This document shows positions 3,723 to 58,472 of a stretch of DNA of 64,000 nt, piece after piece. Source of the stretch: Phaeacidiphilus oryzae TH49 (lineage in GTDB: Bacteria > Actinomycetota > Actinomycetes > Streptomycetales > Streptomycetaceae). The notes under the pieces were generated by a model. The model had not been told where the DNA came from. It ran no database searches and saw only the letters and a program-made list of their open reading frames with translations. The stretch is taken from positions 3,728,055 through 3,792,054 of the forward strand of contig NZ_JQMQ01000005.1 in assembly GCF_000744815.1 (NCBI RefSeq). The letters run 5' to 3'. Position 1 is the stretch's first letter. The number at the start of each line of letters is the position of its first letter. The translations under genes were made by a program, and so were the position numbers.

Positions 3723-5919
3723 GCGGCGTGCCGGGCGCGCTGCTCGACCATGTCCTGCGGCCGCGGTCGGTGGCCGTGGTCGGCGCCTCGCCGCGGGCGC
3801 GGCTGACCGGGGCGCTGATCGCCAACCTCACCTCGGCCGGGGCCGAGGGGCCGGCCGTCCACCTGGTCAACCCGCGCTACGACCGGATCGGCGAACGGCC
3901 CTGCCACGCCACGGTCGCGGAGATCGGGGCGGCCGTCGACCTGGCGCTGGTGATGGTCCCGGCGCGGGGCGTCCCGGAGGTGCTGCGGGACTGCGCGGCC
4001 GCCGGCGTGCCGGCCGCCGTCGTCCTCTCCTCCGGATTCGCGGAGACCCGGCGGGAGGCGGGCGCCCTCCTCCAGCGGGAGGTGGACGAGCTGGCCGCGG
4101 CCACCGGGCTGCGGGTGATCGGCCCCAACTGCCAGGGCGTGATGTACACGCCGGCCGGACTCTACGGGGCCTTCAGCCGGTCGGTGACCGACCTGGCCGA
4201 GGCCGGCTCGGGCCGCAGGCAGGACGGTTCCGGCCTCGCCTACGTCGGGCAGAGCGGGGCGCTCGGTGGCTCGTTCCTCTCCCTGGCCTCCGGTCGGCAC
4301 ACCCCCCTGACCGCCTGGCTGTCCGTCGGCAACCAGTGCGACGTCACGGTCGCCGAGGTGGTCGAGGGCCTGGTCGAGGACGACCGGGTGCGGGTGATCG
4401 CGGCCTACCTGGAGCGGATACCCGAGGGGCGTACCTGGCGGCGGGCGGTGGCGGCCGCGGCGGCCGCCGGGAAGCGGGTCGTGGTGCTGCGGGCCGGGCG
4501 CTCCGAGGCGGGGAGGGCCGCGGCGGCGGCCCACACCGGCTCGATGATCGGCGGGGCCGGCGCCTTCGACGCGGTCAACCGGGCGGCCGGGGTGGTCGCC
4601 GTCGAGGACTTCGGCGAACTGGTCGAGCGGGCGGTGGCGCTGACCGCGCGGCGGACCGTGCCCGGGCCGCGGATCGGCGTGGTCACCACCTCCGGCGGGG
4701 CCGGCATCCTGACCGCCGACTGGATCGAGCGGCACGGTCTGCGGGCCGCCCGGCTCGCCGACCGGACGGTGGAGCGACTCTCGCAGCTGATCCCGGACTT
4801 CGGGCACGCCCGCAATCCGGTGGACGTCACCGCCGAGGTGCTCGGCAATCGGGAGCAGTTCGGCCGGACCTGCCGGGTGGTCGCCGACGACCCCGGGGTC
4901 GACCTCACCCTGGTGGTGGTCACCGGGATCCGCGGGGCCGACGCGGTGGACCTGGCCGAGCGGATGACCACGGAACTGGCCGGCCGTCCCGCGGCCGTCG
5001 TCTGGCTGTACGGGGCGGAGGAGACGGCGGAGGCCCGGGCGGCCCTGGTGCGGGCCGGCATCCCGGTCTTCGACTCGCCGTCGGCGGCGACGGGTTGGGC
5101 GGCCGCGGCGGTGACGGGCGCCGGCGCCGATGCCGGCCCCGGTCCCGCCCCGCCCCCGACGCCGACGGGCCGGCCCAGGAGGCCGGGACGGAGGCGGCGG
5201 TGGCCGCCGTGCTCCGCGCGGCCGGGCCGGACGGGACGATCGGTGAGGCGGAGGGGCGGGAGGTACTGGAGGCGCTGGGCATCGCCACCCCGCGCACCGT
5301 GGTCATCACGCGCCCCGAGGACGCGCCACGAGCCGTCGCGGAGGTCGGCGGGACCGCCGTGCTGAAGGGACGGGCGCCGGGCCTCACCCACAAGAGCGAT
5401 ATCGGCGCGGTCGCCCTCGGCGTCCGGCCGGCCGGCGCCGAGCGCGCGTTCCAGCGGATCGCCGAGCGGATCGCCGCCTGGGACGCGGACGCGGCCCGGG
5501 AGGCCGCGGTGCTGGCCCAGACCCAGGTCGCCGAGGGGCTGGAACTGCTGCTGTCCGTACGGCGGGCGGAGGACGGCTACCCGCCGCTGGTCAGCGTCGC
5601 CCTCGGCGGGACCCGCACCGAGATCTGGCAGGACATCCGCACGGCCGTCTGCCCGCTGGACCCCGCCGGGGCCCGGGCGCTGCTGGACGGTCTGCGGTTC
5701 CGCCGGCTGCTGCACGGATTCCGCGACGAGCCGGCGGTGGACGTGGACGCGGTGGTCGACGCCCTGGTGGGGGTCTCCCGGCTGGCCGTGGCCCTGGACG
5801 GCCGGCTCGACCTGGAGGTCAACCCGCTGATCGTCCACCCGGAGGGAAAGGGCGCGACCGCGGTCGACCTGGTCGCCGCGCTCGCCGGACCGCAGGCTGA
5901 GGGGAGCGGCTGTGAGTGA
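3719..5919 (+). CDS. ADP-forming acyl-CoA synthetase, fused subunits, apparent frameshift
   Basis: This encodes an acetate--CoA ligase (ADP-forming) family protein that activates an organic acid to its CoA thioester. Order: CoA-binding domain (LRPRSVAVVGASPRARLTGA), ligase-CoA domain with the phospho-histidine loop AAHTGSMIGGAGAF and SGGAGILTADW, then an ATP-grasp domain. The GTG at 3719 overlaps the upstream stop (GTGA). The reading frame changes at a C5 run (5153-5157): upstream sequence is in one frame, the ATP-grasp part (GTEAAVAAVLRAAGPDG onward) in the next. One extra C restores a continuous protein of about 733 residues. Alternatively the ATP-grasp part could start at GTG 5200, preceded by GGAGG, as a separate subunit. 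A sequence error is the simplest view. Confidence 0.82.
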
Positions 5920-44954: not shown

Positions 44955-45506
44955 ATGAGCGAGCAGCCGACCGATCCCGAGGAGCCGCGCCCCGCCCTCC
45001 TCGCCCGCTTCGACGACCTCCTGTCCGAGTCGGAGTCCGAGTCCGGGCCCGGCGCCGGTCGCGGCGCGCTGTGGCGGCTCTCCGAATCCGGCCGGCAGTT
45101 GGACGCCAACCTCCTCCGCCTCCCACCGGGAGCGGAGGTCCCCGCGCACGCCGAGCCCGACCTGGACGTCCTGCTGGTCGGCTTCGCCGGCTCCGGCGAA
45201 CTGCGGGACGCCGACGGCGGCGCCCTGGCCCTCCGCGCCGGCGCCGCCGTCTGGCTCCCGCACGGCTCCCGCCGCTCCCTCTCGGCTGGTCCCGACGGCC
45301 TCGCCTACCTCACCGTCCACCGCCGCCGCCCCGGGATGACCATCGCGTCCGAACCGCCGCCGTCCTTCCTCGCGGCTACGGCGCCCCAGGACCAGGGCGG
45401 CGAACCGGCCTGCGCCCTCAACCGCGTCTGCCCGGAGTGCGGCCACCTGGAAGACGGCCCCAGACCGCCCCGCTGCCCGCGCTGCGGCACGGCCTTCACG
45501 GACTGA
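44955..45506 (+). CDS. Cupin domain protein with C-terminal zinc ribbon
   Basis: A 183-residue protein. The single cupin barrel spans about 40-125 (ANLLRLPPGAEVPAHAEPDL; GAAVWLPHGSRRSL). The second His cluster is reduced, so metal binding may be partial. The last 25 residues form a zinc ribbon, CPECGHLEDGPRPPRCPRCG. This pairing suggests a small-molecule sensor or regulator. It shares a 35-bp intergenic region with the S9 peptidase gene. Nothing indicates the ligand. Confidence 0.8.
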   Translation: MSEQPTDPEEPRPALLARFDDLLSESESESGPGAGRGALWRLSESGRQLDANLLRLPPGAEVPAHAEPDLDVLLVGFAGSGELRDADGGALALRAGAAVWLPHGSRRSLSAGPDGLAYLTVHRRRPGMTIASEPPPSFLAATAPQDQGGEPACALNRVCPECGHLEDGPRPPRCPRCGTAFTD

Positions 45507-45519
45507 CGGAGGCGCGAGG

Positions 45520-46656
45520 TCACGGCGCGGTCGACCATGCTCCGGAGAGGGGCGGCGGTGGATCCCGCCGCCAGGCAGTGAGCACTCGAGGGACCTGGAG
45601 GTTCTGATCTCCACCGACCTCCACGGCCAGCCTCCGATGCGCTGCCCAGGCTTCGTCGATCCGGCTGTGCCACCACTCGAGTCGGTCCTCGCCCTCGCGG
45701 TGCTCAGCGAGACCGCAGTGCAGAGCACCTAGTACCCGGCAGTTATGACCAAGCGTGGCCCGCTCACCAGCAGCGCCATCGGGTATGTCGGTCAGCCTTC
45801 TTCCGTCGCATGCCGTGCAGTCGCAGGTCCAGGCGTCGCGACCGGCGGCGTACCAGTCCCGGATGGTGTTCTGCCGTACGAACCTCAGTAGGCGTTCGAC
45901 GATCAGTGCAGGGAAGAGCCGGCGACCGAAGCCCTTCCGCTCGGGCATCGGCCGCATCGCATGCCGGAGAGTCGCGTTGGTGCCGACCGCCCCGGCCAGC
46001 GCACCGTGAGCGATGGCATCCAGTGCGGCAAGGTCGGTCCGCCAGATGACCAGCCGATCGCAGGTCTGGCAGAGCCTTCGCATCTGTGCCGGAACACCGG
46101 AGTGGTCCAGCGGATCGGGCTTCGCATCACCGGCCAGTGCCAGGCCGACCGGGTAGCGGGAGCGTCCTGCGGCGCTGACGAGGGCGTGGATGTGCGGCTC
46201 CCGCAGCCAGTCGAATCCGCACGGCAGTACAACCAAGGTGTTCGCCACCTCTGCCTCGGCGGCGTGGTCTACCACGGCGTCAAGCGTCGGCACATCGCGG
46301 TCCGGTATAAACCCCGTCGGAGTCACCGCGAAACTCGCGCCGCTGGCCAGTTGGCTTTTCAGGACCTGCGTCAGCGTCGGGCCGGGAGTCAGTCGGCCGT
46401 CACCGTCGGCAAGCCCGAACGGATCCTCCGGGGTGGCCCACTGCCCGGTGTGCCGCTCGGGATCGATGGCGAGGACGTCAGCACCGGGGGAGCCACGCAA
46501 CGGCCTGAGCCGCTCCGATGCGCCTTTGCCCACCAGTACCAGCCCGCCCCGATCCGGATTGATGTTCTGTAGTACGTCAACTGCCGAACCCGCTCTGGTC
46601 ATGGTCAGCAGCCGATCCCGCAGCAGATCCACCAACTCACTCGGCTGTGCCCCCAC
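45520..46656 (-). CDS. Uncharacterised protein with a TGT-like zinc motif
   Basis: A 378-residue protein. Residues 100-235 look like alternating strands and helices of a barrel (TLVVLPCGFDWLREPHIHAL; GALAGAVGTNATLRHAMRP). A zinc-type motif C278-x-C280-x2-C283-x20-H304 (WTCDCTACDGRRLTD, then LGHN) has the spacing of tRNA-guanine transglycosylases. The catalytic DSGGFQ is not recognisable. It may be a divergent transglycosylase acting on nucleic acid, or a barrel that only shares the zinc site. It is the last gene before a region of integrase debris, so it may be cargo of an older element. Confidence 0.5.
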   Translation of the reverse strand: MGAQPSELVDLLRDRLLTMTRAGSAVDVLQNINPDRGGLVLVGKGASERLRPLRGSPGADVLAIDPERHTGQWATPEDPFGLADGDGRLTPGPTLTQVLKSQLASGASFAVTPTGFIPDRDVPTLDAVVDHAAEAEVANTLVVLPCGFDWLREPHIHALVSAAGRSRYPVGLALAGDAKPDPLDHSGVPAQMRRLCQTCDRLVIWRTDLAALDAIAHGALAGAVGTNATLRHAMRPMPERKGFGRRLFPALIVERLLRFVRQNTIRDWYAAGRDAWTCDCTACDGRRLTDIPDGAAGERATLGHNCRVLGALHCGLAEHREGEDRLEWWHSRIDEAWAAHRRLAVEVGGDQNLQVPRVLTAWRRDPPPPLSGAWSTAP

Positions 46657-47066
46657 GCCGCCCCCTCAGCCGTTCCGCCGACCGACGCGCAGCCGTGCCC
46701 CGCCCGGCGACCACTGTCACCAGCGTTGAACCAGCGTGAGAGCCTGACAAGACGGCTGTTTCGGCCAGCCCTTCCCCCGCGGGCGCTCCTGCCGTACCGG
46801 ATGGCTGGGGCTCGATTGGACCGTAGCTGAGCCACGAATCCCGGAGAAACCGTTCCCAGTGGGGGCATGGCCGAGCTCGCGCAGAGAAACCCGAATCTGG
46901 GGCAGGGCCCAGCCAGTCTCATCGGTGCGGGGGAGTCGGCCGGTCTCACCGAGTGCGAAGCCGCAGCGTGCATCCCGCGCGCTGAATTGCACTGCCGGAG
47001 GCGCCGCACCCCGCTACCGGTCCTTGCCGGGCGCCCCGGCCGGGCCTTCCGGCGCGCGGGCTGGGA
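46657..47066. other. Non-coding stretch left of the dead integrase
   Basis: No frame here has both a start signal and recognisable protein character. It contains the promoter region of the minus-strand gene ending at 46656 and probably decayed element DNA. Confidence 0.5.
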
Positions 47067-47485: not shown

Positions 47486-47529
47486 GGTCGGGGCGGCGGG
47501 ATTTGAACCCACGGCCTCTTCGTCCCGAA
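47486..47529. repeat. Distal attachment site of the AICE (tRNA-Pro 3' end copy)
   Basis: A 44-bp match to 57315-57358 with one mismatch (c47494 against t57323); 47495-47529 is 35 bp identical. It covers the 3' acceptor, T-arm and anticodon stem of tRNA-Pro. Confidence 0.9.
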
Positions 47530-47821
47530 GCAATCCGAGCGGGCATCCGGCCTGGTGTCTCATACGCTCTGACCTGCCAGAACGTTCCCCGGACGTCCGT
47601 GGTTGTACGGCGTCGTCCGTTGCGGTTGTAGCGCAGTTAGACACTCAGCTACTACGGCAGCATGCCCCTGGATGCGAACTACCGGCAGCTCGTTTGCTGG
47701 GGTCTCCCAGCCCGGCCAACAAGGCTAGCGCGAGCGGCTGCGGTCACCTGCGATCGACACGGTTGCCGTACTTCGCTGCTGTACTCCTCCGCTAGGGATA
47801 CCGCAAGGCGAACGAAGGTGA

Positions 47822-48196
47822 TCACCCCTGGCCCCGGAGGACTTGGCTTGCGTCTCGGCAGGCTTTGAGCCACATGGCCTCCGGCCAGTTCAAGATGATT
47901 CCTGCCACGGTAGGGGTGTTGAGTAGACCACCGTCAGGGTTCACGCGCTCCAACACCGCCTTCTCGGCAGCATCGACCGTATCGCCCATGGTCTTGACCG
48001 GGCCATCGATGATCTTTGGCTCCCAATCAAGATCAGAGTGCAGAAGGGTCGCCGTCGACTCGCCACGCCTCTGGACGAAGATCAAACGCTCGCCGTACTC
48101 GTTGACGAAGTAGGACACATAGTCTGTGTCCTCGATTTGGTAGCCGCTCAGTTCAACGAACAGCTTCCTCAGGTCCGCGCCGAAGTCAGATGCCAT
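47822..48196 (-). CDS. Hypothetical AICE cargo protein, 124 residues
   Basis: Balanced composition with aromatic residues: KLFVELSGYQIEDTDYVSYF, then VNEYGERLIFVQRRGES. It appears to be a small soluble alpha/beta protein. Third-codon G+C is lower than in the core genes, fitting recent acquisition. No family is recognised. It lies at the end of the element away from the integrase, where accessory cargo often sits. The ribosome site is poor. Confidence 0.55.
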   Translation of the reverse strand: MASDFGADLRKLFVELSGYQIEDTDYVSYFVNEYGERLIFVQRRGESTATLLHSDLDWEPKIIDGPVKTMGDTVDAAEKAVLERVNPDGGLLNTPTVAGIILNWPEAMWLKACRDASQVLRGQG

Positions 48197-48548
48197 GCCT
48201 CAGCATGCTAAAGGCCATCTCCTTGCCGTGGGCACAAGATACGCACATTTGGTCAGCAGTCCGCACTTTGGCGGCCACGAATAGAGTTCCGCCGGAACGC
48301 CGCACCTTCCTCCGTCTGCCATCCCGTCTGCCGTCGGCCCACACGTAGTGGTATCGGGCGTGGCCGGCGGGGTCCAGATGGAGCGCGCCACTGTACGAAC
48401 GATCTGGACCCCGCCGGCCACGGCTGATACGGCTTCGCCTGGGTCGTCGGCAGGCGGGATGGCAGACACCCGCCCTTCCCCCTGATCGGCGGTCAGCCGC
48501 GTCACGATCTTGGCTATCCCGGAGCCGGAGCGCCCCCGCCGGAGGCAT
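48186..48548 (-). CDS. Doubtful hypothetical frame with a CxxC tail
   Basis: The C-terminal part (GGTLFVAAKVRTADQMCVSC, then AHGKEM) has protein-like composition and a Cys-x2-Cys pair, and its end overlaps the start of the next gene by 11 bp. The upstream half is Arg/Gly-rich and runs through a 21-bp perfect inverted repeat, so the true start, if any, is probably after 48359. A competing frame (48200-48559) is equally weak. Confidence 0.25.
   Translation of the reverse strand: MPPAGALRLRDSQDRDAADRRSGGRAGVCHPACRRPRRSRISRGRRGPDRSYSGALHLDPAGHARYHYVWADGRRDGRRRKVRRSGGTLFVAAKVRTADQMCVSCAHGKEMAFSMLRHGI
48359..48422. repeat. Perfect 21-bp inverted repeat, 22-bp loop
   Basis: The arms (48359-48379 and 48402-48422) are exact complements with core GGCCGGCGGGGTCCAGAT. 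It lies in the AICE between the cargo gene and the regulator. It could be a bidirectional terminator, or a single-strand origin, since rolling-circle actinomycete plasmids keep such a structure away from rep. Confidence 0.85.
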
Positions 48549-48681
48549 CCAATCGCCATGCCGCGCGAGTGGGCTCTACCTTCATGCCCTCGGGCCTATC
48601 CAGCGGGCCCGCGCTGCCCGTGGCGCGCGCCGCGCGGGCCGAAGGCATGAGCGCGAGTGCGCGCCGACGGGCGGGCGCGGG

Positions 48682-48706
48682 CCCGGCGGCGCTGTGCGCC
48701 GCCGGG
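48682..48706 (-). terminator. Hairpin after the regulator operon
   Basis: CCCGGCGGCGC-TGT-GCGCCGCCGGG is a perfect 11-bp hairpin about 70 bp beyond the XRE stop on the minus strand. Confidence 0.65.
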
Positions 48707-48778
48707 TGCCTTGATGAAGTAGAGAAACTTTAATCCACCGTCGCTGCGCGGGTGTTGATGTGCGTGAGTGTGCGGGAT

Positions 48779-50029
48779 TCAGGGCATCGCGTCGGCACGC
48801 TCGGCGAGTGCTTTCAGTTCGGGGGATGCGGAACGCCCGGCAACGAGGACGAGTTCGCGGATGGCGTTGCGTGCTGCCACGTGGGTGTGGATGACCTCGG
48901 GGGCGAGGTGTTCGGCTCGGATCAGGCAATCGAGGGCTTCGCCGCTCTGCCGGCGCTGGGCGTAGGCACGCCCGAGGTCCATCAGAAGGCGGGCCTGCCG
49001 CTCGACGGACAAGCCGGAGGCATCGACGTGTTGGCCGATCTCGATGGCTTCGCCGGCGTCGCCGAGATCTACGGCGATGGATACGGCCTGGATCTCGACG
49101 TTGGTCGGGCCGAACTCAAGGTTGAAGTCGTTGCGGTCCTCACCGAGTCGGCGGGCGACTGCTCGCGCGTTCTCGGTCTCGGTGCGGGCTCGGGTGCGGT
49201 CGCCGGCGCGGGCGTGGATCAGCGCGAGGACGAGATGGAGTGAACCGAGGACGGAGAGGACTTCCGGCTCGGTCTCGGCGGGCTTCGCGTGCTCGCGAAC
49301 GGCGTTGAGCGCGGTGGTCGCCGCGTGCTCGGCCTGGTCGAAGTGCTTGAGCCGGACGAAGGCTTGGGCGAGGCGGAACACACCGGCGAAGACGTGCAGG
49401 GGCTGACCGGATCGCTCGGCCGCACCGATTGCCCGGTCCGCGGCCAACCATGCCGCGTCCGCTTCGTCCTGGCGCACGAACGCTGCGGCGAGAGCCTGAT
49501 AGGTCCGCGCCAGCAAGAGCGAGAGTTCGGGCTGCTCGGCCGCGGGGGCGGTGCGGACGGCACGCTCCAGCCGGGGCACCAACTTGCCCAGCATCGCGCT
49601 CAGCTCAGCGAATTGGTCGGCGTGGGTGAGGTCCCAGACGTGTTCGACCCCGGCCCGCAGTTCCGGCAGGTTCGCCGGTGTGGGCTGGGCGTCCCCGTTG
49701 AGTAGAACGTCGGGCGCGGGGTGGCCGGAGATGACCAGTCGGGCTTGGTCGAGGTCGTTGCGCTGCTCGGCTGCGGCCGGCTCCGTGGTGGCGGGTGCTG
49801 CCTCGGTGGGTGCGTCGGGCTGCAAGGTTTGCAGGGACACGCCGAGGGCGTCAGCCAGAAGGCGCAATACGTCCAGCCGGTTCACGGGTTGGACGCCGCG
49901 CTCTACCTGGGACATCCAACTCGCGGTGCGGCCGACCTGGACGGCCAACTCGGGCTGCGTCAGCCCTCGTTCGCGCCGTAGATCGGCGATCCGGCTGCCC
50001 ATCGCCTTGGTCTCTTCGGGGGTGCTCAC
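48779..50029 (-). CDS. XRE regulator with TPR-like C-terminal domain
   Basis: A 416-residue regulator. The N-terminal helix-turn-helix has LRRERGLTQPELAVQVGRTA and SWMSQVERGVQPVNRLDVLR. From about 115 it is all-helical with repeated Ala-rich helix pairs (LARTYQALAAAFVRQDEADA; FRLAQAFVRLKHFDQAEHAA; ALIHARAGDRTRARTETENA), a TPR-type solenoid. HTH-plus-TPR is the layout of peptide-sensing RRNPP regulators, though no peptide gene is evident. The GTG overlaps the upstream stop (GTGA). It is divergent from the transfer operon, so it is the likely repressor of conjugation. Confidence 0.82.
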   Translation of the reverse strand: MSTPEETKAMGSRIADLRRERGLTQPELAVQVGRTASWMSQVERGVQPVNRLDVLRLLADALGVSLQTLQPDAPTEAAPATTEPAAAEQRNDLDQARLVISGHPAPDVLLNGDAQPTPANLPELRAGVEHVWDLTHADQFAELSAMLGKLVPRLERAVRTAPAAEQPELSLLLARTYQALAAAFVRQDEADAAWLAADRAIGAAERSGQPLHVFAGVFRLAQAFVRLKHFDQAEHAATTALNAVREHAKPAETEPEVLSVLGSLHLVLALIHARAGDRTRARTETENARAVARRLGEDRNDFNLEFGPTNVEIQAVSIAVDLGDAGEAIEIGQHVDASGLSVERQARLLMDLGRAYAQRRQSGEALDCLIRAEHLAPEVIHTHVAARNAIRELVLVAGRSASPELKALAERADAMP

Positions 50030-50346
50030 GCCGCGGCCGGTCCCTTCCCGGTCTGGCGCTCGATGAAAGTGACCTGCACGTCGGTGAGGTACTGCTCGCG
50101 CTGCGCCAGGAAGTGCTTGGTGTGTGGCTGCTGCTCGTGCGCGTCGAAGGCGGCGCGGTCGGCGTACAGCTCGTAGAAGACGCGGACCTTTGGGTCGTCG
50201 GGGGCGGTGTGCACCACGTACGCGAGAGTTCCCGGCTCTTGTGCCTCGATCTGCGGCACGGTGCGGGACACCAGCTCATCGAATCCTGTGGCTGACGCTT
50301 CGTCACGCAGCTCGAACCGGACGACGAGACCGAATCCGCTGGTCAT
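50026..50346 (-). CDS. Antibiotic biosynthesis monooxygenase (ABM) domain protein
   Basis: A 106-residue ferredoxin-like dimeric-barrel protein of the putative quinol monooxygenase family: GLVVRFELRDEASATGFDEL, then RVFYELYADRAAFDAHEQQP, HTKHFLAQ. AGGAGG precedes the ATG. It is the first gene of a two-gene operon, coupled to the XRE regulator. Enzymatic activity is uncertain; in this setting it may bind or modify the regulator's ligand. Confidence 0.82.
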   Translation of the reverse strand: MTSGFGLVVRFELRDEASATGFDELVSRTVPQIEAQEPGTLAYVVHTAPDDPKVRVFYELYADRAAFDAHEQQPHTKHFLAQREQYLTDVQVTFIERQTGKGPAAA

Positions 50347-50398
50347 GGAGCCTCCTTGGTAGTCACAGACCAGCTTCTCAGACGCACAGCGAAACTGC

Positions 50399-50442
50399 TA
50401 CTCGCAGATTTGCTTGACTCGCAGTTTTTCTGCGAGTACCTT
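50399..50442 (+). promoter_or_regulatory. Transfer-operon promoter with operator in the spacer
   Basis: -35 TTGACT (50414-50419) and -10 TACCTT (50437-50442) are 17 bp apart. The spacer and flanks contain ACTCGCAG-TTTTT-CTGCGAGT (50417-50437), a perfect palindrome with 8-bp arms, and a third copy of ACTCGCAG at 50400-50407. A bound dimer would block RNA polymerase. The XRE regulator divergent to it is the likely ligand. On the other strand the region also drives the regulator operon. Confidence 0.72.
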
Positions 50443-50497
50443 CGCAGAGAAGCTACTAGTTCGGGTGTGGTGCCCGACTGACACAAGGAGCGACGCA

Positions 50498-50845
50498 ATG
50501 CCGTCCTTCAAGATCGACACTCAGACCGCCGTCATCTTCGTGGCGGTTCCGCCCGCGCCGAAGGTCGCCAACCGCAAGACCGGCGAGATCGCCGAGGACC
50601 GCGAGACCGGCGCCAAGCTCCTCACGCTGGGCCTGACTGTGGCCGACGAGGGAGAGGCCAACCTGCTGACCGTCTCCGTGCCGGAGACCGGTATCTCGGA
50701 GGAGCTGACGGTCGGCATGCCGGTGCGGGTGACCGGGCTGCGGGCGCGGGACTGGGAGAACGAGTTCAACGGCCAGAAGAAGCACGGGATCGCCTTCCGC
50801 GCGGTCGCGATCACCTCCGCTGCCGCTGTGAACGGGAAGGGCTGA
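50498..50845 (+). CDS. Small AICE protein upstream of TraB, unknown function
   Basis: A 115-residue beta-rich protein: FKIDTQTAVIFVAVPPAPKV, then TGAKLLTLGLTVADEGEANL and VTGLRARDWENEFNGQKKHG. The beta pattern and the ending resemble OB-fold single-strand-binding-like proteins, but this is weak. AAGGAG precedes the ATG. It is the first gene of the transfer operon and 5 bp from the TraB start; AICEs commonly have a protein of this size here. Confidence 0.7.
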   Translation: MPSFKIDTQTAVIFVAVPPAPKVANRKTGEIAEDRETGAKLLTLGLTVADEGEANLLTVSVPETGISEELTVGMPVRVTGLRARDWENEFNGQKKHGIAFRAVAITSAAAVNGKG

Positions 50846-50850
50846 TTGCC

Positions 50851-52221
50851 GTGTCCGAACTGGCCTCGCTGCTGGAGATAGGCGCCCCGCTGGCCGTTGG
50901 CGGTGCGGGGGTCGCCTACACCCGGGCCCGGATGCCCCGGGCGTACTGGGCGACCATCGGCCTGCCGATGACGCTCGGTCGCATCGGCCACTCCTACGCC
51001 GAGGTGATGGAGGCGTGCGGGCTGGTCGTGGAACCCCCGATGTGGAAGGCCATGGCCGCGCGGGCTGCCGGCGTGGGCAAGCTGCGGCCCATCCCGCCCC
51101 GGATCACCCGGATCGCCCCGACCGCCACCGGCCTGCGGCTTCGGCTGCGACTGGCGAAGGGACAGGAGACCGCGAGCGTGCGGGACGTGTCCGAGCGACT
51201 GCGCCACGCCTGGGGCGTGCACGGCATCTACGTGCACGACGTACGCCCCGGAGTAGTCGAGATCCGGCTCACCGGCTTCGACATCCTGCGCCGCGTCGTG
51301 CTGCCGGCCCGCGCGGTCGCCAAGTCCACCGAGCTGCTGCGGATCCCGGTGGGGCTGCGGGAGGACGGCACGCTGTTCGTCCGTGACTTCCGCGCCACCC
51401 CGCACTCGCTGAGCCTGGGCGCCACCTCGTCCGGCAAGTCCATGTTCCAGCGCGGCACCTTCGTCGGGCTGGCCCGTCAGCCGGTCGCGCTGGTCAGCAT
51501 GGATCTCAAGGTCGTAGACACCGCCGCGCTCGCCCCGCGGCTGTCGGCGCAGGCATCCGAGGTGGATGCGGCCGTGGACCTGATCGAAGCGCTCAACGGC
51601 ATGGTCGCCGACCGCTTCGAGCTGATCCGCCAGCACCAGGGCCTGAGCGGACGCACGCCGGCGGAGGAGATCACCGCCGATGTGTGGGGACTGCCGGAGG
51701 AGCTGCGGCCGACCCCGGTCGTGGTGCAGATCGACGAGATCGCCGAACTGTTCCTCACCGGCAGCAAGCAGCGCCAAGAGCACCTTGCCGGCGAGATGAT
51801 CCGCTTCGCGCAGCTCGCCCGCGCGGCGGGGATGTACCTGGAGGTCTCCGGGCAGCGCTTCGGCTCGGAGCTGGGCAAGGGCGCGACCGCGCTGCGCGCT
51901 CAGCTCTCCGGGCGGATCTGCCACCGGGTCAACGACGAAGCCACGGCGAAGATGGCCCTCGGCGACATCTCCGAGACCGCGGTGGCCGCAGCCACCCGGA
52001 TCGCCGAGAACCGGCCCGGGACCGCGATCGCCGGAGCCACCTCGGGGGCCTGGTCCCGCATCCGCACCCCGGAAATCACCCTCGCGCAGGCCGTGACCGT
52101 CGCACACGAGACCGCTCATCTGACTCCGTACCTGCCGGAGCTGGTGGCGTTCCGGCCCGTCATCCCGGCCCCCGCCGTCTCGCTGGATGACGTGGCGGAC
52201 GCCCCGCCCGCCGCGGCCTGA
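50851..52221 (+). CDS. TraB-like FtsK/SpoIIIE DNA translocase
   Basis: A 456-residue conjugation ATPase. Walker A is LGATSSGKSMFQRG and Walker B is PVVVQIDEIAELF. The following ARAAGMYLEVSGQRFGSELG and the arginine-finger-like segment match FtsK-family pumps. In Streptomyces elements TraB alone moves double-stranded DNA between mycelial compartments, unlike type IV systems. A hydrophobic N-terminus (LEIGAPLAVGGAGVAYTRAR) may anchor it. The GTG starts 5 bp after the previous stop. Confidence 0.92.
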   Translation: MSELASLLEIGAPLAVGGAGVAYTRARMPRAYWATIGLPMTLGRIGHSYAEVMEACGLVVEPPMWKAMAARAAGVGKLRPIPPRITRIAPTATGLRLRLRLAKGQETASVRDVSERLRHAWGVHGIYVHDVRPGVVEIRLTGFDILRRVVLPARAVAKSTELLRIPVGLREDGTLFVRDFRATPHSLSLGATSSGKSMFQRGTFVGLARQPVALVSMDLKVVDTAALAPRLSAQASEVDAAVDLIEALNGMVADRFELIRQHQGLSGRTPAEEITADVWGLPEELRPTPVVVQIDEIAELFLTGSKQRQEHLAGEMIRFAQLARAAGMYLEVSGQRFGSELGKGATALRAQLSGRICHRVNDEATAKMALGDISETAVAAATRIAENRPGTAIAGATSGAWSRIRTPEITLAQAVTVAHETAHLTPYLPELVAFRPVIPAPAVSLDDVADAPPAAA

Positions 52222-52290
52222 GGAACAGCGCACTCCCAGCCTGCGTGACCGACTCACGCCGCATTACGAGAACCGGAGAGGAACCCGATC

Positions 52291-52569
52291 ATGGGCATGT
52301 TCAACCGCCAGAGCAGCAGCGCCAACGACCAAGCCACGTCCCGGGAGCTGGAGCAGCGCGCAAAGGAGGCCTACCGGCAGTACCGCACCGCGGCTAAGGC
52401 CCGCGATGCCGCCGCGGTCGCGCTGGACCAAGCGGAGACCTCCGGTGCACCGCACGGCGAGATCGCGGCCGCGCGATCGGCCTTCGCCACGTGCAGCACC
52501 CGGATGCGGGCGGCCATGGAGACAAGTCATGAGGCCGCGGTGCAGCGTCACGCACACCGCGGGCAGTGA
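52291..52569 (+). CDS. Small helical AICE protein, 92 residues
   Basis: A predicted alpha-helical, charged protein (SRELEQRAKEAYRQYRTAAK, then ARDAAAVALDQAE) with a His-rich end (HEAAVQRHAHRG). GGAGAGGA precedes the ATG. Its stop overlaps the next GTG. No known family; similar short helical proteins accompany tra/spd genes in other AICEs. Confidence 0.65.
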   Translation: MGMFNRQSSSANDQATSRELEQRAKEAYRQYRTAAKARDAAAVALDQAETSGAPHGEIAAARSAFATCSTRMRAAMETSHEAAVQRHAHRGQ

Positions 52570-52763
52570 CCGCCATGACCGCCCGCAAGCCCCCAGTGGT
52601 CTCGGTCGCCGAACTGCCGGCCTGCACCGTCTGCCATGGCTCCGGCACGGTCGCCAAAGCCGTCCGGGTCGGACGCCGACACCGCGTGGTCGGCCACCAG
52701 GAAGGCGCATGCCTGCACTGCTGGGGCACCGGCACCGAACCCGACATGGAAGGGGAACAGTGA
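52566..52763 (+). CDS. Zinc-knuckle protein with DnaJ-like CxxCxGxG repeats
   Basis: A 65-residue protein. CTVCHGSGTV and CLHCWGTGTE are two half-sites of the DnaJ-type CxxCxGxG zinc centre, separated by a basic stretch (RVGRRHRVVG). It overlaps its neighbours on both sides by 3-4 bp or a shared TGATG. Likely a nucleic-acid or protein-binding accessory of transfer or replication. Confidence 0.72.
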   Translation: MTAMTARKPPVVSVAELPACTVCHGSGTVAKAVRVGRRHRVVGHQEGACLHCWGTGTEPDMEGEQ

Positions 52764-53449
52764 TGCGCCGCGCGCTGCTGCCTCGCCTGGATCTGGTGCT
52801 GGTGCAGGCCGTGATCGCCGGTTCGCTGTCCTTCGCGCACCTGCACGACATCGCGGACGCGGCCGGCCAGCACGGCTGGAAGGGTTGGGCCTACCCGATC
52901 AGCGTGGATCTGCTGCTGGTCGCTGCGTGGCGCCGGCTGCGGACGCTGCGCCGCTCCGGTGCCCCGGCCCGCGCCGCGTGGGCGTGGTTCGCCGTGGCGC
53001 TGACCGCCTCGCTCGGGGCGAACGTGGCCACCGCCGGCCTGCTCGATCTGGAACACGTCCCGGCGCTGCTGCGGATCGTGGTGGCCGGCTGGCCCGCGGT
53101 CGCCTTCCTCGGCGGCACCCTGCTCGCGCACGCCACCCCGGCACCGGCCACGACCGAGCTGAGCGAACCCCGCACACCGACCCCGACAGAGGACGGCTCG
53201 GTCTACCTCGACCGCGCCACCGAGACCGCCACGGCACCGGAGGACGCCCGGGCCGAACTGCCCGCCCCCGCAGCCGAAGCGGTGGCTGCCGCACCGATGG
53301 CCGTGCCGCCGGCGCTGGTGGACCACGCCCGCAAGCTCACCGCCGCCCACCGGGCCCGGACCGGCACCGACCTGGAGCCCGAAGCCCTGCGCTCCGCCCT
53401 GGGCGTCCCGCCGGCCATGGCCGACGCGATCGCCGCCCAACTGACCTGA
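52763..53449 (+). CDS. DUF2637 membrane protein (Spd/spread-associated type)
   Basis: A 228-residue protein. Four hydrophobic segments fill residues 5-115 (VQAVIAGSLSFAHLHDIA; YPISVDLLLVAAWRRLRTL; FAVALTASLGANVATAGL; GWPAVAFLGGTLLAH), the DUF2637 pattern. A Pro/Ala/Thr linker leads to a C-terminal helical domain (LTAAHRARTGTDLEPEAL). DUF2637 proteins are regularly found in AICEs and plasmids between tra and rep and are linked to intramycelial spread. Confidence 0.8.
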   Translation: MRRALLPRLDLVLVQAVIAGSLSFAHLHDIADAAGQHGWKGWAYPISVDLLLVAAWRRLRTLRRSGAPARAAWAWFAVALTASLGANVATAGLLDLEHVPALLRIVVAGWPAVAFLGGTLLAHATPAPATTELSEPRTPTPTEDGSVYLDRATETATAPEDARAELPAPAAEAVAAAPMAVPPALVDHARKLTAAHRARTGTDLEPEALRSALGVPPAMADAIAAQLT

Positions 53450-53464
53450 AAGGACTGACCGACC

Positions 53465-53653
53465 GTGTCCGTGCACCTTCCGCTGATCCTCGTGCTTGGC
53501 CTGATCGCCTTCGCGTTCATCAAGTTCCACCGGGTGCGCTGGTGGGGCGTGATCGCCCTGGTCCTGTTCGGCTTCCTGCTCGCCCACACCTTCCTCGGCC
53601 CCGCCGTCGAAGACGGCACCAAGTCCGGCACCCAGATCGTCAACGGCCACTGA
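53465..53653 (+). CDS. Small two-helix membrane protein (Spd-like)
   Basis: A 62-residue protein with two hydrophobic helices (LPLILVLGLIAFAFIKF; VIALVLFGFLLAHTFL) and a short polar tail. It lies 15 bp after the DUF2637 gene. Size and position match small spread proteins of pSAM2-like elements. Confidence 0.75.
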   Translation: MSVHLPLILVLGLIAFAFIKFHRVRWWGVIALVLFGFLLAHTFLGPAVEDGTKSGTQIVNGH

Positions 53654-53673
53654 CCCCGAAGGGAGCACCACCG

Positions 53674-54006
53674 ATGATCCGCCCGAAGTACCCCGAACCC
53701 GTCTACGTCATCACCCACACCCCGCCGTCCCCGGCCCCGACCGCCCCCGGTGCGCCCTGCCCCTGCGGGCACTCCGCCCCGGCCACGCCCCCGTATCAGG
53801 CCCGGGGGCCCGTCCGGCCGCACACCGACCGCCCGATCGGGCTGTACCTCGCGGCCGGAACCGTGGCCGTCGCCGGCACGGTCGCCCTGGCCGTCGCGGT
53901 GACCGCGCTGTTCCTGGCCATCGCCGTGACCGCCATCTCGGTCACCGTGGCCGCGGTCGTCCTGCGCTCCATGCTCGCCGACCACCAGCGCGACCAGCGC
54001 CGCTGA
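53674..54006 (+). CDS. SpdD-like membrane protein
   Basis: A 110-residue protein. The Pro-rich N-terminus has a CPCGHSAPATPP segment, followed by a long hydrophobic region (about 55-95: LYLAAGTVAVAGTVALAVAV then TALFLAIAV) and a basic end (DHQRDQRR). Proteins like this are annotated SpdD or SpdB in AICEs. GGGAG lies upstream of the ATG. Confidence 0.7.
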   Translation: MIRPKYPEPVYVITHTPPSPAPTAPGAPCPCGHSAPATPPYQARGPVRPHTDRPIGLYLAAGTVAVAGTVALAVAVTALFLAIAVTAISVTVAAVVLRSMLADHQRDQRR

Positions 54007-54098
54007 CTGCGCCCCGGGGCGGCCGACATCCCGGCCAAGGAACACCCGACCGCCCCGGGCCCTCGATCCCGCATCAAACGACACCGAGAGGACCCATC

Positions 54099-54284
54099 AT
54101 GCCCGCTACCACCCCGGCCCGTGTCTGCGGACACTGCGACGGTCACCCGACCGTGGCCATCAGCACCGGCCCCCGCCGCCCGGACGGCACCCTGCCCACC
54201 CTGCGCGTGGACTGCCCGGCCTGCCACGGCACCGGAACCACCACCCCGCCCCGGCCGGCCGCGCTGGCCAGCGCCCGGAGGTGA
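54099..54284 (+). CDS. Small zinc-knuckle AICE protein, 61 residues
   Basis: Two Cys pairs, VCGHCDGHPTV and DCPACHGTGT, again form a DnaJ-like zinc site as in the gene at 52566. GAGAGG precedes the ATG. The next small gene starts 6 bp after its stop. Confidence 0.65.
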   Translation: MPATTPARVCGHCDGHPTVAISTGPRRPDGTLPTLRVDCPACHGTGTTTPPRPAALASARR

Positions 54285-54290
54285 CCCGCG

Positions 54291-54470
54291 GTGTCCCTCC
54301 TGAACTGGCGCGACCACTCCCACTGGAACGAGAGGGAAGCGGACTGCGTGCTGTGCGCGAACCCGACCCACCTGCGCTCCGACCGCGGCCGGCCCGTCCA
54401 CAAGGTCTGTGCCGAGCAATGGAACGACGCCCACACCCCGAGTGACGAGAAGAAGGGAGAGCGCCGGTGA
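54291..54470 (+). CDS. Small CxxC AICE protein, 59 residues
   Basis: A short gene starting at GTG 54291. SLLNWRDHSHWNEREADCVL, CANPTHLRSDRGRPVHKVC contains a C-x2-C...H...C set that could hold zinc. GGAGG lies at 54277-54281 and the stop overlaps the initiator start (GTGA). Compact coupling on both sides supports a real gene despite its length. Confidence 0.6.
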   Translation: MSLLNWRDHSHWNEREADCVLCANPTHLRSDRGRPVHKVCAEQWNDAHTPSDEKKGERR

Positions 54471-55846
54471 CCCTGCCGGCCCTGGATGAGGCCACCCTCG
54501 CCGACCTGGTGAAGGTGGCCTCCGCCCCCGACCATGAACGCTGGCTCCGGCAGATCCGCGCAACCGGCGGATGCTCTGCCCCGATCCGGCTGCGCGGCTG
54601 GTCCAAGATCCTCGACCGCACCACGCGACAGGTCCTGCACACCTACGCCACCGACACCGAACCCGGCGGCGTCCTCCGGCTGGCCTGCGGCAACCGCCGC
54701 GCCTCCCGCTGCCCCTCCTGTGCGGCGACGTACGCGGCGGACACCTACCACCTGGTGCGGGCCGGCCTGGTCGGCGACGACACCAAGGGCGTGCGAGCGG
54801 AAGTGCGGGAGCACCCGCGGGTGTTCGCCACCTTCACCGCCCCCAGCTTCGGCCCCGTCCACAACCGCCCCGACACCGGCCGGTGCCGCTGCGGACGCCG
54901 GCATGCCGAAGACGCCCCAGAGCTGGGCACGCCGCTCGATCCGGAGCGGTACGACTACGTGGGCGCGGTGCTGTGGAACAACCACGCCGGTGACCTGTGG
55001 AACCGCTTCACCATCCAGCTCGCGCGCACCCTCGCCGAACGCACGGGTATCCCGCGATCCCGGCTGCGCGAGGTGCTGCGTCTGTCCTACGCCAAGGTCG
55101 CGGAGTTCCAGCGCCGCGGGGCCGTGCACTTTCACGCCGTGATCCGCCTGGACGGCCCGGAGGGCGCGGAGGACGACCCGCCTGGCTGGGCCACGGTGGA
55201 ACTGCTGGACGACGCGATCCGCACCGCCGCAGCGCGGGCGCGGCTGGGCGTTCCGGCGTCGCTTGCGGGGCATCCGGCGATGGCCGTGCGCTGGGGCCGG
55301 CAGCTCGATGTGCGGCCGGTGCGGGCCTTCGGGGACGGCTCGGAGCTGACAGAGCAGGCGGTCGCCTCCTACGTCGCCAAGTACGCCACCAAGGCGGCGG
55401 AAAGCACCGGCACCGTGGATCGGCCGATCGGCAACCGCGAAGCGCTCGACCTGCTCAAGGTGCCCGCGCACGCCCGTCGCCTGATCGAAACCTGCCTCGA
55501 CCTGGATGCGTACTACCCGGGCCGCCGGCTGGCCGCGTGGGCGCACATGCTCGGCTTTCGCGGGCACTTCGCCTCCAAGTCCCGCCGCTACTCCGTCACT
55601 CTCACCTCGATCCGGGAGGAACGAGCTGCCTACCGCGCAGCGGAGCAGCGGGCCGCACTCGGCCTGCCCGACCCCGAAGAGGACGACACCACGCTGACCC
55701 TCGCGCACTGGATCTACGCCGGACAGGGCCTCACCCCCGGCGAGTCCATGTTCGCCGCGACCATCGCCAACGACCTACGCGAGTCCAGACGACTCGCACG
55801 CGAGAACGACGCCGGCTCGATCGGTACGGAAGGAGTAGCAGCGTGA
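54467..55846 (+). CDS. RepSA-like rolling-circle replication initiator
   Basis: A 459-residue protein. An N-terminal zinc region (RLACGNRRASRCPSCAATYA) is followed by FATFTAPSFGPVHNR, the HUH motif RRGAVHFHAVIRLDG, and the catalytic tyrosine helix VASYVAKYATKAAE, the three landmarks of pSAM2 RepSA. It nicks the element's origin to allow replication after excision. GTG 54467 overlaps the previous stop, and the stop overlaps xis (GTGA). Confidence 0.92.
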   Translation: MTLPALDEATLADLVKVASAPDHERWLRQIRATGGCSAPIRLRGWSKILDRTTRQVLHTYATDTEPGGVLRLACGNRRASRCPSCAATYAADTYHLVRAGLVGDDTKGVRAEVREHPRVFATFTAPSFGPVHNRPDTGRCRCGRRHAEDAPELGTPLDPERYDYVGAVLWNNHAGDLWNRFTIQLARTLAERTGIPRSRLREVLRLSYAKVAEFQRRGAVHFHAVIRLDGPEGAEDDPPGWATVELLDDAIRTAAARARLGVPASLAGHPAMAVRWGRQLDVRPVRAFGDGSELTEQAVASYVAKYATKAAESTGTVDRPIGNREALDLLKVPAHARRLIETCLDLDAYYPGRRLAAWAHMLGFRGHFASKSRRYSVTLTSIREERAAYRAAEQRAALGLPDPEEDDTTLTLAHWIYAGQGLTPGESMFAATIANDLRESRRLARENDAGSIGTEGVAA

Positions 55847-56070
55847 CAGTGACCATGGCCGTGGAATCGCCGGCGCTCCCGGCACCCGCCCTGTATCGGG
55901 TGAAGGATGCCGCGGTGGTGCTCAGCCTGAGCCGGACGGTCGTCTACGAGCTGATCCGCTCTGGTCGGCTCCGGACAGTGAAGGAAGGGCGGGCGCGTCT
56001 CGTGCCGGCGAGTGCGGTGCGAGAGTACGTGGCGCTGCTGGAACGAGAAGCGGGGCAGCGCTGTGCCTAA
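55843..56070 (+). CDS. xis: Excisionase / MerR-like helix-turn-helix protein
   Basis: A 75-residue DNA-binding protein: YRVKDAAVVLSLSRTVVYEL, IRSGRLRTVKEGRARLVPAS is the typical excisionase winged-helix. It directs Int toward excision. It overlaps repSA by 4 bp and int by 8 bp, the usual repSA-xis-int order. Confidence 0.9.
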   Translation: MTVTMAVESPALPAPALYRVKDAAVVLSLSRTVVYELIRSGRLRTVKEGRARLVPASAVREYVALLEREAGQRCA

Positions 56071-57259
56071 GCGGCGGAGCAGGGGGGACGGCGGTCTCCA
56101 CTGGGATGAGAAGCGCCAGCGTTGGATCGCCTCGGTGACCGTCGGCTATGACCCGAGCGGCAAGCGGATCGTGAAGCGCGGCAGCGGGCGGACCAAGACT
56201 GAGGCCAAGGCCAAGCTGAAAGAGGTCCTGCGCGACCACGAGGACGGGTTGGCCATCGCGCCGACCAACTACACCGTGGCCGATGCGGTGAACGACTGGT
56301 TGGCCTACGGGCTGGCCGGCCGGAGCCCGGAGACGGTGAAGGCGTGCACCACGCTGTGCCGGACTCATGTGATCCCGGCTCTCGGGGCCCGCAAGCTGCG
56401 GGAGTTGAGCGCGGACGACGTGGATCGGTGGCTCGCTGCGAAGGCGAAGACGCTGAGCACGCGCACCCTGGAGGGAATCCGCTCCTGCCTGAACCGCTCG
56501 GTGCGCCGGGCCATGGCGCGAGACAAGGTGAAGCGCAACGTAGTCGAGCTGTGCGCGGTGCCCACCGGCCAACCGGGGCGTCCGTCCAAGGCGCTGACGC
56601 TGGCTCAGGCAGAAGCCGTGTTGAAGGCCGCGGAGGAGAGCCCGATGCGGGCGTACGTCGTCGTCTCACTGCTGACGGGGGCGCGGACGGAGGAGCTTCG
56701 GGCGCTGACCTGGGATCACGTCTTCCTCAAGGGTGATCCCGACGCGAACCCGCCGATCCCGCCGTACATGGCCGTCTGGCGGTCGGTGCGGGCGACGGGG
56801 GACACCAAGACGCGAAAGTCTCGGCGGACGCTGGCGCTGCCGGCCCGGTGCGTTGAAGCCCTTCTGGATCACTGGGTGGATCAGGGATGGGACCGCTACG
56901 CGGCCGGCCACCGGTGGCAGGAAAACGATCTCGTGTTCCACTCGGACGTGGGGACCGCGCTGGACCCGTCCCACGTGCGGCGCGCCTTCCGCGCTGCCAT
57001 CGACCAGGCGGAGGGTGTGACCGCTGCCGAGTGGACTCCGCGAGAGCTTCGTCACAGCTTCGTGTCTCTGCTGTCGGACAGCGGGGTTCCGCTGGAAGAG
57101 ATCTCGCGGTTGGTCGGGCACTCCAGTACGGCGGTGACCGAGGAGGTCTACCGGAAGCAGATCCGGCCGGTGATCCAGACGGGAGCGGTCGTCATGGATC
57201 AGATCTTCAAGAGCGGGAGCGAGCGCGACGCCGGCTCGGGCGAAGGCCCCGAACGGTAG
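56063..57259 (+). CDS. int: Site-specific tyrosine integrase of the AICE
   Basis: A 398-residue recombinase from GTG 56063 (VPKRRSRGDGGLHWDEKRQR). The arm-binding and core-binding domains cover 1-170; the catalytic residues are visible in TGARTEELRALTW (Arg I), PRELRHSFVSLLSD (His-x-x-Arg region), RLVGHSSTAV (His) and EEVYRKQI (Tyr). It is complete and lies 58 bp from the tRNA-Pro 3' end, its attachment site. Confidence 0.95.
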   Translation: MPKRRSRGDGGLHWDEKRQRWIASVTVGYDPSGKRIVKRGSGRTKTEAKAKLKEVLRDHEDGLAIAPTNYTVADAVNDWLAYGLAGRSPETVKACTTLCRTHVIPALGARKLRELSADDVDRWLAAKAKTLSTRTLEGIRSCLNRSVRRAMARDKVKRNVVELCAVPTGQPGRPSKALTLAQAEAVLKAAEESPMRAYVVVSLLTGARTEELRALTWDHVFLKGDPDANPPIPPYMAVWRSVRATGDTKTRKSRRTLALPARCVEALLDHWVDQGWDRYAAGHRWQENDLVFHSDVGTALDPSHVRRAFRAAIDQAEGVTAAEWTPRELRHSFVSLLSDSGVPLEEISRLVGHSSTAVTEEVYRKQIRPVIQTGAVVMDQIFKSGSERDAGSGEGPER

Positions 57260-57276
57260 TCACTCAGTTAGATACG

Positions 57277-57310
57277 CAGAGGCCCTGCCGGATAACCGGC
57301 AGGGCCTCTG
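57277..57310. terminator. Bidirectional terminator between int and tRNA-Pro
   Basis: CAGAGGCCCTGCCGG-ATAA-CCGGCAGGGCCTCTG is a perfect 15-bp hairpin with a 4-base loop, between convergent transcripts. Confidence 0.85.
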
Positions 57311-57316
57311 AGCTGG

Positions 57317-57390
<74 letters not shown>

Positions 57391-57539: not shown

Positions 57540-57545
57540 TAGGAT
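57540..57545 (+). promoter_or_regulatory. Candidate -10 for leaderless lysR-type transcript
   Basis: TAGGAT ends 6 bp before the ATG at 57552 and no ribosome site other than GGGGG is present, which fits transcription starting at the A of the start codon. Confidence 0.45.
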
Positions 57546-57551
57546 GGGGGC

Positions 57552-58472
57552 ATGCCTGAGCTGCGCAGCCTGAGTTACTTCCTCGCCGTCGCCGAGGAGC
57601 GGAGCTTCGCCCGCGCCGCCGAGCGTCTGCACGTCGCCCAGCCCGTGGTCAGCCGACAGGTGCGCGAGCTCGAGCGCGAGCTCGGCGTCGAGCTGCTCCA
57701 CCGGAGTGTGGAGGACGTCGCGCCCACCGAGGCCGGTCGGCTGCTTCTGGAGCGCGGCCCGGTGGTCCTCTCGCTCGCCGACTCCCTCTGGCGGGACGTG
57801 CAGCAGTACGCGGACGGCCGGCTCGGCAACATCTCCTTCGGGTACGGGATGAGCGCCGGCTACGAGACCGCCCCCGCGCTGCTCCAGGCGATGAGCGAGG
57901 AGTGCCCCGGCATCGAGGTCTCGGCCCGGGTGCTGGCCTCCGGGGACATCGTCAACGGCGTCGCCCACGGTCTCCTCGACGTCGGCCTGGTGCGCTGCGC
58001 CCCCGAGGTGGAGGGGCTGCGCAACACGCTGATCCGGCTGGAGCGCCAGGGCGTGATCCTCGGCAGCGACCACCCGTTGGCCAAGGCCGCCGCCGACACC
58101 GGCTCGGTCGACCCCGCCGACCTGGACGGCGTGCGGCTGCTCCTCCACACCCGCGAGCAGAACCCCGGCCACTACGACGCCGTGATGGGCATCGCGGAGC
58201 GGGCCGGGGCCGCCCCGGAGGTGCTGGTGCGCGGTCAGGACTACGACGGCGCCTACCAGCCGGTGGTGGAGGGCTCGGCGGTGACCATCGTCGGCGCCTC
58301 CGGACAGGTGGGCCTCCCCGGCGGGCTGGTCTGGCTGCCGCTGGATCCGCCGGCCGCGATGGAGGTGCACCTGATCACGCGGGCGGACGAACGTTCCGCC
58401 TCGGTGGAGCGGATGCTGGAGGTGGCCAGGGCCACGGCGGCGCGCGACGGTTGGCTCACCCCGGTGAGGTGA
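57552..58472 (+). CDS. LysR family transcriptional regulator
   Basis: A 306-residue regulator. The helix-turn-helix is RSFARAAERLHVAQPVVSRQ followed by VRELERELGVELLHR. The substrate domain (90-300) has the two-lobed periplasmic-binding fold, with GNISFGYGMSAGYETAPALL at its start. It is not obviously divergent from an enzyme gene, since the tRNA lies upstream, so its target cannot be deduced. Confidence 0.92.
   Translation: MPELRSLSYFLAVAEERSFARAAERLHVAQPVVSRQVRELERELGVELLHRSVEDVAPTEAGRLLLERGPVVLSLADSLWRDVQQYADGRLGNISFGYGMSAGYETAPALLQAMSEECPGIEVSARVLASGDIVNGVAHGLLDVGLVRCAPEVEGLRNTLIRLERQGVILGSDHPLAKAAADTGSVDPADLDGVRLLLHTREQNPGHYDAVMGIAERAGAAPEVLVRGQDYDGAYQPVVEGSAVTIVGASGQVGLPGGLVWLPLDPPAAMEVHLITRADERSASVERMLEVARATAARDGWLTPVR

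Follow-up and report, generated by a model that had tools for sequence, protein, structure and literature searches.

An accessory TGT-fold protein of Phaeacidiphilus oryzae TH49 and the RmrA-like genes beside its relatives

Enzymes of the tRNA-guanine transglycosylase (TGT) fold are known for base exchange in tRNA or DNA. The window considered here, a stretch of 64,000 nucleotides from the genome of the soil actinomycete Phaeacidiphilus oryzae TH49 (contig NZ_JQMQ01000005.1), carries on its minus strand an open reading frame (45520..46656) whose product recalls this fold and which lies beside an integrative element. The locus raises the question of what such a protein does there, and whether it would still work in the manner of a transglycosylase.

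A predicted TGT fold in an uncalled reading frame

The frame extends from a GTG start at 46656 to 45520, encodes a predicted protein of 378 amino acids and is preceded, 4 nt before the start codon, by the Shine-Dalgarno-like GAGGGGG (46661..46667, minus strand), as read from the sequence. It was left uncalled in the window by a codon-model gene caller, which fits the unusual codon use of the gene. At third codon positions its G+C is 0.75, whereas 60 called genes of the window have a median of 0.94; this low value fits horizontal acquisition. The argument that the frame is a real gene rests on conservation, as seen in a 49-member family alignment. The protein is not named by the family models searched. 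Pfam returned no family, with one unrelated match (E 0.5), and TGT (PF01702) gave no match at E<=10. NCBIfam models left the window protein unrecognised, searches of the PDB by phmmer and by profile gave nothing useful, and none of the PADLOC models matched three members tested, the window protein included. A PHROGs search with 41 family members reached a best E of 0.078 and no recognised family.

The predicted fold is nonetheless that of TGT. The AlphaFold2 model, for which 41 family sequences served as input (the identical L048 and L060 and the truncated L050 were left out), has a pLDDT of 90.1 and a pTM of 0.90. In VIA-align 2, all 50 of the 50 matches listed are TGTs, with Z of 17.6-18.4 and rmsd of 3.7-4.4 over 283-317 aligned residues at 7-10% identity, and these alignments reach into the zinc subdomain. 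Foldseek gave five matches at E <0.001, three of them TGTs and two pyruvate carboxylases, and its TGT alignments are loose (TM ~0.5, rmsd 6.4-7.1). An earlier sequence-only reading had described a barrel-like middle recalling TGT, a description with which the confident model and the structure comparisons agree; the predicted fold, by AlphaFold2, Foldseek and VIA-align 2, is related to that of TGT. The top viral fold match in BFVD was A0A5J6TRS2 of Gordonia phage Powerball (E 1.2e-5), an uncharacterised protein of 379 amino acids that is absent among the sequence-search matches.

Profile comparison reaches the same family faintly. Against 24 canonical TGTs (24 of 25 loci, L098 being left out), hhalign found a local similarity that is weak (P 0.002, probability 13.8%), and a global comparison of the two families yielded no alignment, local pieces only. 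The zinc segment by itself matched at P 7e-5, a flattering figure, as the segment was chosen after the motif had been seen. A comparison with one phage DpdA, that of phage 9g, showed no link (P 0.2).

Zinc site and active-site face of the barrel

The cysteine and histidine pattern C-x-C-x2-C-x20-H that the sequence-only reading had picked out near the C-terminus corresponds to C278-x-C280-x2-C283-x20-H304 (45745..45825, minus strand), and is not a chance pattern, since none of its four ligands varies among the 49 members. Conservation counts given here refer to the 49-member family alignment; L011, L023 and L025-L029 were left out of alignment A1. Equally invariant are P182, R206, D208, G218, G225, R231, W329 and W362. 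The model places eight strands at residues 15-21, 37-42, 62-65, ~110, 140-147, 170-176, 202-205 and 221-225. The protein resembles the Zymomonas TGT, QTRT1 and archaeosine TGT in its eight-strand barrel, in its C-terminal zinc subdomain with CxCxxC..HN ligands, and apparently in an Asp that closes strand 3 and has an aromatic residue or His at +4.

According to the accessible text of one source (PMC6165067), TGT uses Asp280 as its nucleophile and Asp102 as general base, and according to that of another (PMC5395182), Tyr106 stacks on the base while Asp156 contacts it. D65, the last residue of strand 3 (46462..46464, minus strand), is the candidate equivalent of Asp102, and is Asp in 46 members and Glu in 2, with one gap (n=49). 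Position 69, at the spacing that separates Tyr106 from Asp102, is Tyr in 36 of the 49 members and His in 10. In the weak local hhalign match (P 0.002), D65 falls opposite the Asp of the DSGGFQ motif and position 69 opposite the Phe of that motif; Q102 meets a consensus Gln, and T114 is aligned to the Asp of the LDE motif, which we take to be Asp156 in TGT numbering. This last region is occupied in the family by T112-P113-T114 at the end of strand 4 (46315..46323, minus strand), unlike in TGT. Strand 8, which reads AGAVG, ends with the invariant G225 (45982..45984, minus strand) in the region of the nucleophile Asp280, an assignment that follows from the model, the alignment and the order of strands; no conserved acid occurs at positions 221-230 in the 49 members, where strand order would place Asp280. 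After strand 7 comes R206-x-D208 (46033..46041, minus strand), with both charged residues invariant in 49 of 49.

Because hhalign aligned only local pieces, the residue equivalences to TGT are drawn from the order of strands together with two local alignments. On these grounds, one catalytic element of TGT seems to have been kept and the nucleophile lost, with an R-x-D pair invariant one strand earlier, so that the active site of the family looks rewired. The residues of the barrel's active-site face (D65, T112, R206, D208, R231 and H232) are almost or fully invariant among the 49 members. The remark of the sequence-only reading that the substrate motif was missing is thereby given substance: strand 8 has no conserved acid, and DSGGF is replaced by D-x-x-x-Y/H.

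Distribution and gene neighbourhoods of the family

Within the Streptomycetaceae, a search with the window protein found carriers in 27 of 394 genomes at E<=0.001, of which 25 are firm. Not counted as firm were G343 (E 2e-4) and G307 (E 1e-3), whereas G075, with a copy split in two frames, and G140, with a truncated copy, were counted as carriers. A phylum-wide profile search matched 4 of 396 genomes, the window genome included and one match being marginal. A location in the core genome of relatives, which would have spoken against the sequence-only reading, was not what was found; the gene is accessory. In named genomes, scanning turned up 43 loci, most of them in Streptomyces and the others in Streptosporangium, Gordonia, Microlunatus, Nocardiopsis, Streptacidiphilus, Actinacidiphila and one genome labelled Saccharothrix. 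Sequence searches of phage, plasmid and viral collections found no relatives. Some copies (G102; G244 C1:7630915; G075 C1:1141-2207) lie within ~31 kb of the ends of near-chromosome-sized contigs, and the two of G102 (C1:30475 and 9704539) lie near opposite ends, an arrangement like that of terminal inverted repeats.

The host family has no recognisable TGT of its own. PF01702 matched 0 of 394 Streptomycetaceae genomes, all 14 of 14 control genomes and 68 of 119 genomes across the phylum; none was found in the 25 firm carriers, or in the window genome at E<=0.1. Matches to QueC, of the preQ0 pathway, occur in 26 of the 27 carriers and are full-length (E <1e-40) in 5. The other 21 are weak (E >1e-5), mostly covering ~67 residues inside frames of 424-784 amino acids, and one carrier has no match at all. 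The window genome has a single 67-residue match just over the cut-off, in a frame of 553 amino acids, and no full-length QueC. Salvage of the base is possible in carriers of this kind.

Of two recurrent neighbours, one lies upstream on the same strand, a gene for an HTH and Peptidase_M78 (ImmA/IrrE) protein, found by profile at 31 of the 43 named-genome loci (split by a frameshift in L057). A further HTH-Peptidase_M78 gene precedes the divergent L114, with a weak and partial RmrA match (E 2e-7), so that 32 of 49 relatives have an HTH-ImmA gene beside the TGT-fold gene (31 RmrA-like and L114). At L114, a DUF6932 gene (4919-5353) overlaps this upstream gene. The best PADLOC match of the protein is RmrA, at E 1e-66 for L037 and 2e-64 to 1e-56 for four others, and is near full length in all five members tested. 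Counted from the protease stop, the TGT-fold gene has its closest start at -4 to +11 nt at 29 of 30 measured loci, the choice of start being the analyst's. In three phages examined, the RmrA-like gene has other neighbours.

Downstream and convergent lies a gene of ~200 amino acids, here called c1, at 41 of the 43 named-genome loci as well as at L110, L111, L113 and L114; it is absent at L112. In all, c1 is present at 45 of 49 loci, and the window is among the four where it is missing. The tails of the two genes are separated by as much as a 54-nt gap or overlap by as much as 33 nt at 39 of 41 loci. By genome, c1 occurs in 23 of the 25 firm carriers as against 5 of the 369 others (one of the 5 marginal), and in one of these five non-carriers it adjoins a remnant of the TGT-fold gene. 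L177, L179, L180 and L181 have c1 without a TGT-fold gene, and G154 has three c1 copies of identical score and a fourth, partial copy. The predicted model of c1 has a pLDDT of 90. VIA-align matched it to the restriction enzyme PaqCI at Z 9.4, the sole row at Z >=8, and the further matches, at Z 7.6 and lower, are what we take to be several PD-(D/E)XK nucleases; Foldseek gave no match at E <0.001. In our own reading, the N-terminal half would have a winged-helix fold. The view of c1 as an active restriction enzyme is unsupported, as D..ExK is not conserved in its alignment (L033 and duplicates left out) and the fold is suggested by VIA-align alone.

Defence genes surround some members. BREX genes lie on both sides of the TGT-fold gene at L032, L033 (where genes are broken), L034, L036 and L112. 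At these five loci pglX flanks it to one side, while pglY, pglZ, brxD and a DEAD-box helicase (brxHI) stand to the other, a gene set of type 2 BREX. L113 is flanked by the type I restriction-modification genes hsdM, hsdS and hsdR and an integrase. An N6 methylase lies near L030, an NB-ARC-TPR gene near L111, a helicase matching PDC-S37 and Hhe before L052, a MkoC-like helicase before L065, and a DndB-like gene, with no PADLOC match, by L072. These neighbours were chosen by inspection, with no background count for comparison, and illustrate rather than prove enrichment; at many other loci, the genes inspected include no defence-type neighbour. In the window, pglX, pglY, pglZ, brxD and the helicase are absent. 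The presence of BREX in the window genome is likewise unsupported, a PglZ match there being only below the cut-off.

In the family tree, the window copy is sister to L111 inside a clade of 11 members (support 0.99). At the loci of this clade the HTH-ImmA gene is absent, and five of its 11 members are those between the type 2 BREX genes. The window locus has neither partner, RmrA-like gene nor c1, and c1 has no match anywhere in the window genome.

Candidate functions

The reading preferred here, to which slightly less than an even chance is given, is that a RosmerTA-like defence module has this TGT-fold protein as its effector, which would act on N-glycosidic bonds. A TGT-fold nucleic-acid enzyme would have evolved into the effector of a small module whose ancestral layout comprised a translationally coupled, RmrA-like HTH-ImmA protease upstream, restraining or repressing the effector, and a convergent nuclease-fold-like protein at the tail of the effector gene. 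Infection or DNA stress would release the effector. It might then attack a guanine-type base of tRNA or DNA, cleaving or exchanging its glycosidic bond by means of the kept base-pocket Asp and aromatic residue (D65, Y/H69) and of R206-x-D208, a pair now at another place, and so stop the phage or the cell. The window clade would subsequently have lost the protease gene, and the window copy the nuclease-fold-like gene as well. A more specific version is offered more tentatively: that this is an undescribed effector family that strips or exchanges bases, with Asp280 lost and catalysis carried by the strand 7 R-x-D pair, that it occupies an RmrT-like place in a three-gene module (HTH-ImmA protease, effector, and winged-helix, nuclease-fold-like partner), and that it is also cargo of type 2 BREX.

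The effector reading draws on the fold match, the conserved active-site face, the closely spaced RmrA-like gene, the convergent partner and the defence genes around some relatives, as well as on precedent. In RosmerTA, the HTH-ImmA antitoxin RmrA is paired with diverse RmrT toxins against phages, as the accessible text reports (PMC10440598); COG2856-Xre fusions have long been predicted to act with toxins, as stated in the accessible text of a further source (PMC2701414); and a TGT is reported in BREX-related capture (BRC) systems, whose components otherwise differ in the accessible text (PMC12839542). The coupled RmrA-like gene, in 31 of 49 relatives with a weaker one in one more, is the likeness to RosmerTA; the TGT fold of a partner that PADLOC does not match, the extra convergent gene and the lack of an adjacent RmrA-like gene in the window clade are the differences. 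As in BRC, a TGT homologue stands beside BREX-like genes, although BRC, as far as the same text describes it, has HerA/FtsK, GNAT and DUF4007, whereas the genes seen beside five relatives are pglX, pglY, pglZ, brxD and a helicase. Against the effector reading stand the convergent partner, which lies on the opposite strand and not in one operon, strand 8 without a conserved acid, the lack of PADLOC recognition, the looseness of Foldseek's TGT alignments, a window copy without partners and the absence of relatives by sequence from phage, plasmid and viral collections. The main difficulty for a toxin is the protease-less clade: the protein is evidently tolerated in 11 members without an RmrA-like gene beside it, which argues against a simple lethal toxin.

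The sequence-only reading had suggested defence or self-marking by modification of tRNA or DNA. Its defence half gains a link through the relatives, namely their RmrA-like partner, BREX at five loci and restriction-modification at one. Self-marking fares less well, given the apparently lost nucleophile position, the missing full-length QueC and a partner more like a toxin-antitoxin protease than part of a modification pathway, and an effector is at least as likely. In its fullest form, self-marking would resemble the 7-deazaguanine DNA modification of DpdA: the enzyme would exchange bases in host DNA (or tRNA), c1 would restrict unmarked DNA, and the HTH-ImmA gene would only regulate. The shared TGT fold in a defence setting, the stable pairing with c1 and its PaqCI-like best structural match, the BREX and restriction-modification genes around some relatives, and the one DndB-like neighbour, DpdB having a DndB domain in the accessible part of its description (PMC11888242), all speak for this. 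It is nevertheless considered unlikely, as full-length QueC is missing in 22 of 27 carriers (even if the base could be salvaged), strand 8 has no conserved acid, the D-ExK motif is not conserved in c1, c1 itself is missing at four loci, and the profile comparison with the phage 9g enzyme gave no link. The fold and zinc site, kept where the nucleophile position is apparently lost, could suit a non-catalytic protein serving as a tRNA- or DNA-binding sensor or as a scaffold for partner proteins. QTRT2 is a subunit of this kind, inactive but of TGT fold and with zinc, whose catalytic pair is changed: by the accessible text (PMC6165067), Cys replaces the equivalent of Asp102 and an acid (Glu) is kept at 280. 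The present family is apparently the reverse. The near-invariance of D65, T112, R206, D208, R231 and H232 is unlike a decayed pocket, and among 394 genomes no recognisable catalytic TGT is available to pair with, which leaves this proposal rather doubtful. A lineage-specific housekeeping TGT making queuosine in tRNA would explain the fold and the lack of any other PF01702 match in the window genome, but is very improbable for a gene that is accessory (25 of 394 genomes), differs in its active-site residues, sits in a module in its relatives and occurs here in a genome without full-length QueC.

Together, an apparently altered nucleophile site, an RmrA-like protease partner, a host family without a recognisable TGT and genomes that mostly lack full-length QueC point to new chemistry or a new immune use of the fold. 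In the literature searched, where subscription journals are thinly covered, no paper was found that joins 'Rosmer' and 'transglycosylase' or that describes this family. The module is small and offers clear candidate residues in D65, R206, D208 and the zinc ligands.

The window copy and its integrative element

In the window, the place of the relatives' nuclease-fold-like partner is occupied by a convergent gene on the plus strand (44955..45506), whose cupin match is weak (E 0.0026, below the cut-off) and whose product has zinc-ribbon-like cysteines at its C-terminus. It was considered as a conserved partner and rejected, as its homologues in 12 stretches from relatives share no other window neighbour. 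On the other side of the TGT-fold gene lies a 44-bp att repeat, a 3' fragment of tRNA-Pro (47486..47529), which is the near end of a pSAM2-type integrative element that extends over 47486-57358. The element carries an FtsK/SpoIIIE transfer protein (50851..52221), the pSAM2-type replication initiator RepSA (54467..55846) and a tyrosine integrase (56063..57259), all on the plus strand, and is inserted in tRNA-Pro (cgg) (57314..57390, minus strand), with the far att repeat at 57315-57358. An integration hotspot had been claimed for this region; the element and its repeat are there, and the TGT-fold gene lies just outside them, between the cupin-like gene and the att remnant. The insertion locus is a variable site: the interval from the S9 peptidase gene to tRNA-Pro is ~1.5 kb in G012 and ~13.3 kb in G001, and a search with the family profile found the TGT-fold gene in none of 11 relatives' fetched flanks, while the control L112 was found.

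These surroundings bear on a reading that concerns the window copy alone and is compatible with any of those at family level, namely that it is a decaying hitchhiker of a former module and now functionless. Both partners are missing, the codon model leaves the gene uncalled, its third-position G+C is low, and it adjoins the att remnant. A full-length open frame with the family-invariant residues and a Shine-Dalgarno-like site speak against decay, and the proposal is regarded as possible, though on balance doubtful; the orphan copy may still be active.

A 25-bp imperfect repeat (E 0.002) was also noted at 46860-46884 and 57545-57568, the latter including the start of a gene at 57552. It may mark an older insertion that duplicated the start of a gene, or be due to chance.
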